Source: Planomicrobium okeanokoites (lineage in GTDB: Bacteria > Bacillota > Bacilli > Bacillales_A > Planococcaceae). From it: a stretch of DNA of 64,000 nt. The DNA is taken from contig NZ_QQRS01000003.1 in assembly GCF_003428875.1 (NCBI RefSeq), forward strand, positions 310,001 to 374,000, read 5' to 3'. The notes beneath the pieces are model-generated. The model searched no databases. It saw nothing but the letters and a program-made list of their open reading frames with translations, and was not told the DNA's origin. Both the position numbers and the translations under genes were made by a program. Shown here one piece after another: positions 5,114 through 42,824 of the stretch (the stretch's first letter is position 1; each line of letters opens with the position of its first letter).

Positions 5114-6012
5114 CATTCTCCGAAATCAAACTTCACGCCAGTCAATTCCTCCGAAACTTTCCATAATTGTTTCGCAACTTCTTCGTCGAGGGCTGATGGA
5201 TGTGGCGTCTCGAGTGACGGATAGCCTTTGCGACGGCCAGGTCCATCGGGTCCGATATATTCACCGCCTGTTAAATCGGGAGCTGTTGCTGCATGGACTG
5301 TTGCAAGCGCGCCCATTGCCGGTGGCTGCAGATAATATTTATTGGCAAGATTCCTCAGGAAAAGAGGCGCGTCTTTTTTGCCTAATTTGAATATATTGGT
5401 GGCGGAAACGCCTGGATGGCAGATGACGCTGATCGTGCCGGACCCATGTTTTTTCAGAAGCCGGTCGAGCTCCAAAGCAAACAGCATATTGGCCAGTTTG
5501 CTTTGGTTATAGAATTTTTTGGCTTTATAGCCTTTCGAGCCGTCCAAGTTCTCAAAATCGATGGATCCCCGGTTATGTGCCAGACTTCCGGTCGTAACAA
5601 TGCGTGAATCGGGAGTTCTGTCAATCAAAGGGAATAGCAGCGCGGTCAAAGCGAAATGGCCGAGGTGATTGCTGCCGAACTGCATTTCGAATCCATCTTT
5701 CGTCTTGGAATAAGGCGGCATCATGACACCTGCATTATTGATCAGCAAGTCGAGGGCAGCGAAATCTCGAAGAATTTCATCAGCAAATGTACGCACACTT
5801 GCCAGATCAGCTACATCCAGCATTCTTATTTCAACAGTGGCCGCTGGATGCAAAGCCAGAATTTCCTTGCGGGCCACAACTCCCTTGGCTTCATTGCGCA
5901 CGGCCATGATAATATGTATGCCCATTCCAGCAAGCACTTTTGCCGCTTCCAGGCCGATGCCGCTATTCGCCCCTGTAATGACAGCGGTTTTTCCAGAAAA
6001 ATTTTGAGACAA
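5113..6012 (-). CDS. SDR family oxidoreductase (retinol dehydrogenase-like)
   Basis: A short-chain dehydrogenase of about 299 residues with a Rossmann fold: cofactor motif TGANSGIG near the N-terminus, NNAGVM in the middle, and catalytic Tyr-Lys in YNQSKLAN. The size and pattern match the WWOX/retinol-dehydrogenase-like subgroup that uses NADP(H); the physiological substrate is unknown. The longest frame starts at GTG 6030, but AAAGGAG lies inside it, so TTG at 6012 with 8-base spacing is the likely start. The 3' end abuts the 21-bp repeat array. Confidence 0.88.
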   Translation of the reverse strand: MSQNFSGKTAVITGANSGIGLEAAKVLAGMGIHIIMAVRNEAKGVVARKEILALHPAATVEIRMLDVADLASVRTFADEILRDFAALDLLINNAGVMMPPYSKTKDGFEMQFGSNHLGHFALTALLFPLIDRTPDSRIVTTGSLAHNRGSIDFENLDGSKGYKAKKFYNQSKLANMLFALELDRLLKKHGSGTISVICHPGVSATNIFKLGKKDAPLFLRNLANKYYLQPPAMGALATVHAATAPDLTGGEYIGPDGPGRRKGYPSLETPHPSALDEEVAKQLWKVSEELTGVKFDFGE

Positions 6013-39567: not shown

Positions 39568-39920
39568 GTTTAGCCTCCTGTGTCTTGCAGCATTAACGTT
39601 AATGATAAAGTATGTAATTTGTGTCTTAGGGTATATAAGAGAACTACTACACTGTAACAAAGTTACCATTATATTTCGAATAACTCACATTATTACAAGA
39701 AAGATGTTTTTTCTATTGAATAACTGCTAACAATCGAATTTAGGTTAATTTACCTATAAAGAAGTCCTGTTGTTCAAAACCAGCCAGAATTCGACAATTT
39801 TTTTCCCAATTACGCATCCTCGTTTCTTCTGCTAACGTTAGGTGTGTGGCAAGGAGATTGCGGGACGCCGCATCACCGGGATTTGCCATAAAAAACATTT
39901 AGGGATAAGGAGATTGATGT
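39568..39920. promoter_or_regulatory. 353-bp control region upstream of the subtilisin gene
   Basis: No gene is present. Several palindromes stand out: CATTAACGTTAATG (39591-39604), GTAACAAAGTTAC (39654-39666), AGGTTAATTTACCT (39742-39755, one mismatch pair) and CTAACGTTAG (39832-39841). The 8-mer TAACGTTA occurs twice, 239 bases apart. These are candidate operators for the neighbouring RRNPP-type regulator or for general stationary-phase regulators. A PlcR-type box (TATGNAN4TNCATA) was not found. Confidence 0.5.
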
Positions 39921-41189
39921 ATGAAGAAATCAGGAAAGATTTTCACAACAGCCATGTTGGCGGTCACTTTGATGATGCCGGCTATGGGCGTAAGCGCCAA
40001 TGAAGGAAACGCGGCAGACAATGGGAATGGCAATGAAAAATTCCGGGTACTGGTTGATTCAGGCAATCAGAAAAACCTGAATAACATTAAAGAGCAATAT
40101 GGGGTCCATTGGGATTTCGCGGCTGAAGGTTTTACGACCGAGATGAATGAAAAGCAATTCAATGCATTGCAAAAAAACAAGAACATTACAATAGAAAAGG
40201 TTCCAGAACTTGAAATTGCCACTGCTACGGATCAGCCGGAAGCAAAGTATTCTGCAATGGCAGCTTCACAATCGACTCCATGGGGCATCAAAGCAATTTA
40301 TAATAATAGCAGCATTACTAAAACAAGCGGAGGCGCAGGAATCAATATTGCCGTGCTTGATACTGGAGTCAATACAAACCACCCGGACCTTCGTAATAAT
40401 GTGGAGCAATGTAAAGATTTCACAGTAGGTACATCATATACGAATAACAGCTGTACAGATCGTCAGGGGCATGGCACACATGTTGCCGGATCGGCACTGG
40501 CTGACGGCGGTACGGGAAGCGGCGTTTACGGTGTAGCACCGGATGCTGACCTTTGGGCGTACAAAGTATTAGGTGATGACGGATCAGGATACGCTGATGA
40601 CATCGCAGCAGCAATCCGCCATGCGGGAGACCAGGCTTCGGCTCTTGGAACTAAAGTTGTCATCAATATGTCGCTGGGTTCTTCGGGAGAAAGCAGCTTG
40701 ATCACGAACGCGGTAAACTATGCATACAATAAAGGTGTACTTGTGATTGCAGCAGCAGGAAACTCAGGTCCTTACCAGGGATCGATCGGATATCCTGGTG
40801 CACTTGTCAACGCAGTGGCTGTAGCGGCTCTGGAGAATACGGTTCAAAACGGAACTTACCGTGTTGCAGACTTCTCTTCACGCGGATATAGCTGGACTGA
40901 CGGAGACTATTCAATCCAAAAAGGCGATGTGGAAATCTCAGCTCCAGGAGCGGCGATCTATTCCACTTGGTATGATGGCGGATACGCTACAATCAGCGGT
41001 ACGTCTATGGCTTCACCACATGCTGCAGGTTTAGCGGCTAAAATCTGGGCGCAGTATCCTTCGGCATCAAATGTTGATGTAAGAGGAGAATTGCAGTACC
41101 GCGCATACGAAAACGATATCCTATCCGGTTATGGTGCCGGTTATGGCGATGATTATGCGTCAGGTTTCGGTTTTGCCACTGTGCAATAA
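39921..41189 (+). CDS. Secreted subtilisin-like serine protease (S41/S39 type)
   Basis: A 422-residue prepro-subtilase: signal peptide (to about Ala26), an I9-type propeptide (VLVDSGNQKNL, FTTEMNEKQFNAL) and a mature S8 domain starting near SQSTPWGIKAIY. The triad is Asp147 (VLDTGV), His184 (GHGTHVAG) and Ser362 (GTSMASPH), with oxyanion Asn281 (AAAGNSG). Cys164 and Cys178 probably form a disulfide. The mature sequence strongly resembles the cold-active subtilisins S41/S39 of Antarctic Bacillus as I remember them. AAGGAG with 6-8 bases precedes the ATG. An HTH-TPR regulator and a pro-peptide gene follow. Confidence 0.95.
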   Translation: MKKSGKIFTTAMLAVTLMMPAMGVSANEGNAADNGNGNEKFRVLVDSGNQKNLNNIKEQYGVHWDFAAEGFTTEMNEKQFNALQKNKNITIEKVPELEIATATDQPEAKYSAMAASQSTPWGIKAIYNNSSITKTSGGAGINIAVLDTGVNTNHPDLRNNVEQCKDFTVGTSYTNNSCTDRQGHGTHVAGSALADGGTGSGVYGVAPDADLWAYKVLGDDGSGYADDIAAAIRHAGDQASALGTKVVINMSLGSSGESSLITNAVNYAYNKGVLVIAAAGNSGPYQGSIGYPGALVNAVAVAALENTVQNGTYRVADFSSRGYSWTDGDYSIQKGDVEISAPGAAIYSTWYDGGYATISGTSMASPHAAGLAAKIWAQYPSASNVDVRGELQYRAYENDILSGYGAGYGDDYASGFGFATVQ

Positions 41190-41210
41190 TCGGTATTCCA
41201 ACAGCAAGGG

Positions 41211-41241
41211 CAGTTCCGGCTATAAGCCGGGGCTGTTTTTT
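41211..41241 (+). terminator. Terminator of the subtilisin gene
   Basis: CAGTTCCGGC-TATAA-GCCGGGGCTG followed by TTTTTT. The regulator gene starts 39 bases later, so it needs its own promoter or read-through. Confidence 0.85.
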
Positions 41242-41242
41242 A

Positions 41243-41251
41243 TGGTATTAT
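41243..41251 (+). promoter_or_regulatory. Possible extended -10 promoter of the RRNPP regulator
   Basis: TGGTATTAT (TG-N-TATTAT) at 41243-41251 lies directly behind the subtilisin terminator; no good -35 is visible. The gap to the start codon is 28 bases. Confidence 0.4.
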
Positions 41252-41279
41252 TTAATTAATCTGAAAGAAGGGTGAGGCT

Positions 41280-42509
41280 ATGAATATTGGTTCTGTGATA
41301 AAGTATTACCGCTCCAAAAACAATATGACACAATCCCAATTGGCTGATGGCATCTGCTCTATTTCCCATCTCAGTAAAATTGAATCGAATACCTATACGC
41401 CGCATGAATCGACGATTGAAGCACTGCTCCTGAAGATGGGGGTTCAATGGAAAAAAGAAATAGCCAAAAGAAGCCGGCTGGAACGCCAGTTGAATGATTT
41501 CGTCACATGCTCTTTGCACTACGATTTGGACGAAATGAAACTTCAATACGAAAAATTGCAATTGGACAATGATTATATCCAGTCGACGGATCTGGTCAAT
41601 CAATATGAACTGTATAAGTTCCGTTATTATCTATACATAAAAGATCAAACTCGTGCGGATCGGCAAAAAGCTATGCTGGAACGGATGAAGAATTCCTTCA
41701 CTGAGGCTGAAACCTGGATGCACCAACTTTTTCTGTCACTGTACTATACTATGGCCAATAAAAAAGAGCTTGCGATGGAATATGTCAATTCGCTGGATGG
41801 CGGAATCCAAAGTATTCCACAGAAATTCGAAGGGGAGTTCTATTACCAGAAGGCACGTTTGCTGATCATGCATGAACAATACGAATTGTCGGCCCATTTT
41901 GCTGAACTCTCGGTACAGTATTTCAAGTTGAATTATAATTACATCCGTCTGCTCCACGCCCAGCTGCTGTTGGCGATCAATTATATGCGGCGCAACCTGC
42001 TGGTACAGGCGGCTGGTATTTTTGAAGTGCTGAAACGCAATACCAGACTGACAGACCAGCAGGAACTCTATCATCAAACTTTGTATAATTTTGCTGAATT
42101 GCTGAAAACCCGTCACGATCATAATCAGGCGTTTGATTTGCTGACCGAATTACATGATATCCTGCCAAAAGATACATATTTTTATAAAGCGGTGCTTGTA
42201 AGCCTTATTGAAACAGCGGTGGAAGTAGGCGCAGATGCATGGAATTATGTGCGTGAACTGCGAGAGCTGGCTGCTGGTCCGGAGGATGAATACTTTTTGT
42301 TATACTTAAACTATTTCGAGAAACGAAATTTTTCCCAACCAGACCTTTTGGCTTATTCAGAGGAAAAAATGTTCCCATTTTTCAGAAAACATGGTTACAT
42401 AAGAGAAAGTAAAAAAATCGCATTAGAACTGGCTGAGCACTTTAAAAGTGCTAAGCAATGGGAAAAGGCGATGTACTATCAATCCTATTACGATAGAAAT
42501 GGAGGTTGA
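41280..42509 (+). CDS. RRNPP-family (NprR/PlcR-like) HTH-TPR quorum-sensing regulator
   Basis: A 409-residue regulator. Residues about 5-58 are an XRE-type helix-turn-helix (VIKYYRSKNNMTQSQLADG, SISHLSKIESNTY); the remainder is all-helical and TPR-like (LFLSLYYTMANKKELAMEY, YYQKARLLIMHEQYELSAHF, AMYYQSYYDRNGG). Length and layout match NprR and PlcR, cytosolic receptors that bind a re-imported signalling peptide and control protease genes. The stop lies six bases before the start of a 53-codon secreted pro-peptide, the classical receptor/pro-peptide arrangement. The target is probably the upstream subtilisin; this is inference. Confidence 0.88.
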   Translation: MNIGSVIKYYRSKNNMTQSQLADGICSISHLSKIESNTYTPHESTIEALLLKMGVQWKKEIAKRSRLERQLNDFVTCSLHYDLDEMKLQYEKLQLDNDYIQSTDLVNQYELYKFRYYLYIKDQTRADRQKAMLERMKNSFTEAETWMHQLFLSLYYTMANKKELAMEYVNSLDGGIQSIPQKFEGEFYYQKARLLIMHEQYELSAHFAELSVQYFKLNYNYIRLLHAQLLLAINYMRRNLLVQAAGIFEVLKRNTRLTDQQELYHQTLYNFAELLKTRHDHNQAFDLLTELHDILPKDTYFYKAVLVSLIETAVEVGADAWNYVRELRELAAGPEDEYFLLYLNYFEKRNFSQPDLLAYSEEKMFPFFRKHGYIRESKKIALELAEHFKSAKQWEKAMYYQSYYDRNGG

Positions 42510-42515
42510 ATTTAT

Positions 42516-42677
42516 ATGAAGAAAGGGAAATTGATTTTATTGACTGGATTGGCTGTGGCCATGATGGCCATGGGAGCATGGGCTCCAACAGCTTCACAGG
42601 TGGATCATTCAGATGCAGTCGTCGCTTCCGGCGGCGTGCAGGAAAGCACAATCCCGACTATTTTACCTCCCCTGTAA
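42516..42677 (+). CDS. Secreted signalling pro-peptide (NprX/PapR/Phr-like)
   Basis: A 53-codon gene with GGAGG (42501-42505, inside the end of the regulator gene) 10 bases before ATG 42516. The product has a basic N-terminus (MKKGK), a hydrophobic core (LILLTGLAVAMMAMGAWA), a probable signal peptidase site near Ala23 or Ser27, then a polar stretch ending ...VQESTIPTILPPL. This is the design of RRNPP pro-peptides, where a C-terminal 5-10-mer is released outside and imported by an Opp permease. The mature signal is likely within STIPTILPPL. A strong terminator follows. Confidence 0.78.
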   Translation: MKKGKLILLTGLAVAMMAMGAWAPTASQVDHSDAVVASGGVQESTIPTILPPL

Positions 42678-42695
42678 AATAGCGGATTGTTCCAA

Positions 42696-42727
42696 AGCTC
42701 CCGGCCTAGGCCCCGGGAGCTTTTTTG
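42696..42727 (+). terminator. Terminator of the regulator/pro-peptide operon
   Basis: AGCTCCCGG-CCTAGGCC-CCGGGAGCT followed by TTTTT; very GC-rich stem. Confidence 0.9.
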
Positions 42728-42824
42728 TATGGGGGAAATATGCAGGAACGTTTAATATACAGCTGTTTATACTAAGTGAATTGGGCAATAATGTAGTAAC
42801 AAGGCGCAAAAGGAGGAGTTGCAG

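Follow-up and report, generated by a model that had tools for sequence, protein, structure and literature searches.

A probable peptide quorum-sensing circuit of the RRNPPA class for a single secreted subtilisin in Planococcus and its relatives

What controls the secreted subtilisin gene that lies beside a receptor-like regulator gene in Planomicrobium okeanokoites? We analyzed a 64,000-nucleotide stretch of this genome (contig NZ_QQRS01000003.1, positions 310,001 to 374,000 of the forward strand; hereafter, the window), in which a gene for a subtilisin-like protease is followed by a gene for a helix-turn-helix (HTH) and tetratricopeptide repeat (TPR) regulator and by a small open reading frame (ORF). 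Our analyses indicate that the secreted subtilisin of Planococcus and its relatives is very probably switched by an exported ILPPL-type peptide and the adjacent receptor, and we consider it likely that these genes make up a peptide quorum-sensing circuit of the RRNPPA type, encoded on the chromosome and devoted to a single extracellular enzyme. The closest named relatives of the window genome are Planomicrobium sp. Y74 and P. halotolerans. The features of the locus, all on the plus strand and in window coordinates, are as follows.

39801..39813, +: candidate operator box TTTTCCCAATTAC on the -35 side of the subtilisin promoter, conserved upstream of subtilisin orthologs
39830..39838, +: extended -10-like element TGCTAACGT, 16 nt 3' of the box, with constant spacing across orthologs
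39921..41189, +: secreted S8 subtilisin-like protease, the probable target (Peptidase_S8 PF00082, E=8e-53)
41200..41243, +: intrinsic terminator in the gap between subtilisin and regulator (hairpin and T run, -24.7 kcal/mol, z -4.3)
41280..42509, +: HTH-TPR receptor/regulator of the RRNPPA class with an NprR-like fold (match to NprR in the PDB; Foldseek)
42500..42504, +: ribosome-binding site GGAGG for the pro-peptide gene, read from the sequence, within the last regulator codons
42516..42677, +: pro-peptide gene of 53 amino acids (aa), with a basic start, hydrophobic signal segment, variable middle, and IPTILPPL end (small ORF kept at 80/81 loci)
42651..42674, +: predicted mature pheromone IPTILPPL, the best-conserved part of the precursor, with the highest precursor confidence in a fusion model
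42694..42730 (about), +: intrinsic terminator past the pro-peptide gene (G+C-rich hairpin and U run, -22.2 kcal/mol, z -2.3)

A preliminary description of this DNA had proposed an S8 protease, an HTH-TPR regulator, and a 53-codon ORF with a signal peptide, and ORF calls and Pfam searches found all three; the start given there for the locus, 39568, precedes the S8 ORF (39921) by about 350 bp and takes in upstream DNA. As also described, the 53 codons of the small ORF start 6 bases past the regulator stop and are preceded by a GGAGG, which we located inside the final codons of the regulator and also saw in the close orthologs L004-L007, L009, and L010. Because strong terminators flank the regulator gene and the small ORF, the two are probably cotranscribed as a short unit, and a separate promoter would serve the protease gene upstream.

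The neighboring subtilisin had been proposed as the target of the regulator, and both strong linkage and a shared promoter box support this proposal. Among 261 family genomes searched for the regulator at E<1e-30 and for the orthologous subtilisin at E<1e-75, 85 encoded both proteins, 7 the regulator only, 2 the subtilisin only, and 167 neither. The subtilisin thus occurred in 85/92 genomes with the regulator versus 2/169 without it (Fisher's test, P about 1e-57, ignoring relatedness). The regulator was present in 43/46 genomes of the same genus, and all three Planococcus genomes without it were also without the orthologous subtilisin. In Planococcus and the sister genus g17, the protease gene precedes the regulator gene on one strand; in seven other genera the two genes are divergent. 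Adjacency of subtilisin and regulator outlasts this change of orientation. The window subtilisin (422 aa) contains the catalytic motifs DTGVN, GHGTHVAG, and GTSMASPH, and its mature part matches two solved structures, subtilisin 2gko (E=4e-175), which we take to be Antarctic subtilisin S41, and sphericase 1ea7 (E=4e-147).

Three of the genomes with only one partner merit mention. In G106, a regulator-only genome, the regulator is at a contig end. In G119, which has the subtilisin only, the contig stops 193 bp before the gene, and the promoter has the box. In the other subtilisin-only genome, G061, the orthologous subtilisin (L124, 5383-6770) is divergent from and beside a different HTH-TPR regulator, followed by an NprX-like precursor that ends in GVPEIIVEG; the controlling system seems to have been exchanged in nature.

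The box lies just upstream of, or overlaps, the -35 region of the subtilisin promoter, which has an extended -10 element and a poor -35 (TTACGC-like, 17-nt spacing). We found a box upstream of 72/74 subtilisin orthologs examined, in the form TTTTCCCAATTAC in Planococcus, as a TTTTCCCAATTTC-type in most of g17, and as a TTTTCCCAATAAAC-type in distant genera, and its distance to the extended -10 element was identical in 70 of the 72 box-bearing promoters. With a gap of 6-22 nt allowed in the pattern, the gap was 16 nt in 35/35 subtilisin promoters matched. The 3.3-Mb window genome holds one exact copy of TTTTCCCAATTAC, with a chance expectation of 0.16. A search of the 46 genus genomes at fixed spacing and with one mismatch allowed gave scattered matches and no second conserved target; a recurrent near-match beginning TTTCCCGATTGAAACTGCTGCT (G000, G010, G021, G029, and G039) was set aside due to a mismatch in the box core. 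A conserved DNA site is expected for this regulator given the many invariant residues in its HTH, and the best reading of the box is as the predicted operator of the neighboring regulator. The papers searched held no published NprR DNA box for comparison.

Alternatively, the box might belong to another transcription factor or serve as an alternative promoter element, with the regulator-peptide pair merely traveling with the subtilisin. G063 and G067, two family genomes without the regulator, have three pattern matches elsewhere, one with the same spacing, although these look like chance. However, G061, whose subtilisin is paired with another HTH-TPR regulator, has no box at that gene, and the three regulator-less Planococcus genomes are without the box pattern. 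In two further families, f16 and f7, the box is also found between relatives of the regulator and subtilase genes. We give this alternative little credence and retain the box as the predicted operator.

Duplications in relatives and a palindrome near the promoter were also seen. In G021:C24:42744-45733 (L043), the subtilisin is tandemly duplicated together with its box promoter, and at G037:C12:449864-449997 the promoter element alone is duplicated in tandem. In the window, a perfect palindrome, ATTAACGTTAAT, occupies 39590-39604, with a 63-aa ORF of the minus strand on one side and the subtilisin promoter on the other.

Analogy with NprR and PlcR, together with the weak -35, suggests that the regulator would activate the subtilisin promoter. 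The same circuit may instead run with the opposite sign, the peptide-free regulator covering the promoter as a repressor and the peptide lifting it off, in the manner of AimR. A box beside or over the -35 region is a place suited to a repressor too, and arbitrium peptide inhibits AimR DNA binding (PMC6536502). An extended -10 with a poor -35 is, however, typical of an activated promoter, and peptide-bound NprR activates transcription (PMC4970707). We regard repression as unlikely and favor activation.

The assignment of the regulator to the RRNPP receptors, made in the preliminary description, agrees with our searches against NprR, PlcR, and Rap, which found a relation in both sequence and fold. 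The regulator is an RRNPPA protein by sequence and structure because a profile of 80 relatives matched NprR (7e-34), several Rap proteins (Rap3T, 5e-12), and PlcR (8e-6) in the PDB and because NprR and Rap ranked top in Foldseek; it is thus a TPR receptor homologous to Rap, NprR, and PlcR, as RRNPPA receptors are in general. Within its 409 aa, Pfam detects the HTH alone (HTH_3, E=2.7e-7). NprR was the sole match in a single-sequence PDB search (E=2.8e-13), aligns with the regulator across ~340 residues, and is the PDB protein closest to it in both sequence and fold. Conservation in the regulator is highest in the HTH, where T17, Q18, C26, S27, H30-K33, E35, and N37 are invariant.

Residues of NprR that bind NprX include R126, Y165, W167, H201, N306, D309, and R343, and those that contact Spo0F are D107, Y118, E188, and Y223 (PMC4970707). 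By residue mapping, none of these seven NprX-binding residues is conserved across the regulator family. N275, presumably also a residue of the NprX pocket, is retained as invariant N270, the one kept of eight checked. Among the Spo0F contacts, D107 is replaced by S or F and Y118 by K, E188 is kept in 73/80 proteins, and Y223 is variable. Because NprX-binding and Spo0F-contact residues are mostly not kept, the regulator would work in an NprR-like manner yet falls outside NprR, and these comparisons place it in a sister subfamily of NprR rather than in NprR itself. Its partner peptide is also not SKPDIVG-like. The regulator likewise falls outside the PlcR subfamily of short five-TPR receptors in its length and outside the Rap family, defined by absence of an HTH, in having one that is near-invariant.

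These residues also bear on whether the regulator might act mainly as Rap proteins do, via protein-protein contact as a Spo0F phosphatase, with the subtilisin as an incidental neighbor. Rap proteins have the same fold, and a Spo0A gene is present in the window genome. Against this stand the replacement of D107 and Y118, the concentration of conservation in the HTH, and the box and subtilisin linkage, which Rap-like action would leave unexplained, so that we see almost no likelihood of it and continue to regard the protein as a DNA-binding receptor. Other regulator-like genes were observed. L002 (G000:C1:784976-786169) encodes a 414-aa HTH-TPR paralog with no obvious small signal-peptide ORF directly 3', and in genus g4 (L099, L100, L102, and L103) a second regulator-like gene (profile E about 1e-75), apparently a tandem duplication, lies directly past the regulator-peptide pair.

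The small ORF had been expected to be conserved in relatives, and we found it next to the regulator at 80/81 loci with a relaxed motif and at 77/81 with a strict P..h.PP tail. Small ORFs with such a tail arose at a null rate of 0.15% in Markov-shuffled sequence and 0.21% in other real slices; the small ORF is beyond chance. RRNPPA systems in general have a neighboring pro-peptide gene that encodes a signal segment and a conserved C-terminal signal, and such a gene is present at 77-80/81 loci. Precursors range from 28 to 113 aa and carry a hydrophobic signal segment, as assessed by eye. Their last 8 to 9 residues hold a P-x-h-x-P-P pattern and their N-terminal part drifts. In five Planococcus clades, the ratio of nonsynonymous to synonymous polymorphism (pN/pS) was 0.00-0.16 for the tail (last nine codons) versus 0.27-0.72 for the remainder, with 0.07 versus 0.36 in the clade of the window; in g17, tail and remainder were alike (0.26 and 0.28). 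These ratios indicate that the precursor tail is under purifying selection.

Tails in Planococcus are IPTILPPL, APHILPPL, GPNVLPPI, GPHVLPPV/F, and GPQVLPPV/L; those of g17 are PPSVLPPQ or PPDVMPPQ; and more distant genera have PTIPILPPI and SIPIHPPIG, with 3 to 4 tandem copies at three loci. The small ORF could be a small secreted protein or leader of another role rather than a signal. However, conservation lies mainly in the last 8 to 9 residues, and precursors can be as short as 28-31 aa or bear 3 to 4 tandem tails, layouts typical of pheromone precursors (PMC9765709). A role other than signaling is very improbable, and we treat the tail as the signal. Tail types track receptor clades, requiring 13 changes for 11 types versus a shuffled mean of 55, and are constant inside a clade and different between clades. 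This match fits receptor-signal coevolution, but plain descent predicts it too. The earlier suggestion of a new pherotype stands insofar as the tail is unlike the SKPDIVG type; rather than one oddity, however, the tail belongs to a whole family of pherotypes that differ between clades.

Because the TGA stop of the window regulator shares the reading frame of the small ORF, reading TGA as W yields a receptor-precursor fusion, which we modeled with AlphaFold2 and assessed by the predicted local distance difference test score (pLDDT). In the window fusion, the last five residues had a pLDDT of 71, residues 409-458 were below 50, and block means in the rest of the precursor were 21-35. In the fusion from L106, whose receptor is ~29% identical and whose tail is SVPVHPPV, the last six residues reached 83 and residues 426-446 were below 50. 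These models suggest that the precursor tail may pack against the receptor.

Together, these findings support a model in which the 53-aa precursor would be exported by the general secretory (Sec) pathway and proteases would free about 8 C-terminal residues (here, IPTILPPL, from the predicted cleavage site). The subtilisin had been suggested as the processing enzyme, an idea weakened by five g17 genomes that lost the subtilisin and still have the regulator with an ordinary tail; processing by it is possible, but we judged it not required, as the tails are unchanged in these strains. In dense populations, the peptide would be re-imported through an oligopeptide permease, for which the three SBP_bac_5 oligopeptide-binding protein genes of the window genome provide a candidate route, such a permease being a general feature of RRNPPA systems. 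The peptide would then bind the neighboring regulator in its TPR groove, and the peptide-bound regulator would bind the TTTTCCCAATTAC box and activate the extended -10 subtilisin promoter. The shared protease would thus be made only with enough kin present.

Several observations weigh against this model. Fisher's test takes no account of phylogeny, and many of the genomes are of one ancestry. The five g17 genomes keep regulator and peptide after subtilisin loss, with the promoter box retained ahead of the regulator and altered in two, and another output is possible there. In Planococcus, the box was not found directly ahead of the regulator, and no autoinduction loop is evident there. The fusion models cover native tails and are read from pLDDT alone, so the place where the tail docks is not visible, and a conserved tail column may by itself lift pLDDT. 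In a distant member of family f38, neither a peptide of the P-x-h-x-P-P type nor a subtilisin was found.

That f38 member came from a class-wide sample of 399 genomes, in which relatives of the regulator were found in families f33, f38, f16, and f7; a search at the level of the order had yielded no genomes other than the 261 of the family. In f33, a subtilisin (56%) and the regulator occur with 29-35 aa precursors ending in MPPILPPA or MPPIQPPV. In f16, a large subtilase with the box is directly past the regulator, with no precursor seen, and in f7 a broken subtilase with the box is divergent to the regulator. Given these finds in further families, the association of regulator and subtilase looks old. 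We lean, with less assurance than for the circuit itself, toward a distinct RRNPPA subfamily across several Bacillales-type families that is bound to one subtilase and one operator, its pheromone having diversified into many proline-rich pherotypes. It would form a minimal, apparently single-target public-good switch, with G061 included as a case of an NprX-like system beside the same protease.

Among known systems, PlcR-PapR pairs an HTH-TPR activator of secreted enzymes with a pro-peptide gene 3', as here, and the regulator profile matches PlcR weakly (E=8e-6). PlcR is shorter, has five TPRs, and acts through a palindromic box on a large regulon; in contrast, the regulator described here is 409 aa long and seems to have a single conserved target. 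NprR-NprX of the Bacillus cereus group (protease gene nprA) shares the HTH and TPR receptor, a pro-peptide gene directly 3', and control of an extracellular protease. It differs in its SKPDIVG peptide and neutral protease NprA, in place of a P-x-h-x-P-P peptide and a linked subtilase, and in 7/8 checked NprX-pocket and 2/4 Spo0F-contact residues not kept here. Rap-Phr of Bacillus has the same TPR fold and an exported precursor with a C-terminal signal, tandem copies of which are known (PMC9765709), but Rap has no HTH, the most conserved part here. Two loci look like a second, multicopy pheromone system: in the window genome, a paralogous HTH-TPR regulator overlaps a 112-aa precursor that contains ERIPEPWS six times (L003, 683..1021, minus strand, G000:C25), and L133 of the Planococcus relative G024 has seven AERIPDPWAAK copies past oriented position 5298.

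The NprR subfamily is reported in 21 genera, with repeated pro-peptides (PMC9765709). Some of the present loci may already be included in that survey or in the RRNPP_detector clusters (PMC10075063); the main texts of both name no Planococcaceae or Caryophanaceae, none of the genera searched for, and no subtilisin link. The receptor subfamily, proline-rich pherotypes, single-target wiring, and box were absent from the papers searched, with the supplements of the two surveys outside this scope and prior listing there possible. The principle is known from peptide quorum sensing in Gram-positive bacteria; the subfamily, pherotypes, wiring, and box are apparently undescribed.

None of the papers searched ties control of sphericase-group subtilisins to quorum sensing. 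Our analysis predicts a regulator, a signal peptide, and an operator for this subtilisin group, among whose well-studied members are sphericase 1ea7 and probably Antarctic subtilisin S41 (2gko). With one receptor, one target, many tails, and both single- and tandem-copy precursors, the family would offer a natural test bed for pherotype evolution. If the proposed circuit is real, protease production in harmless environmental strains should be switchable with a short synthetic peptide.

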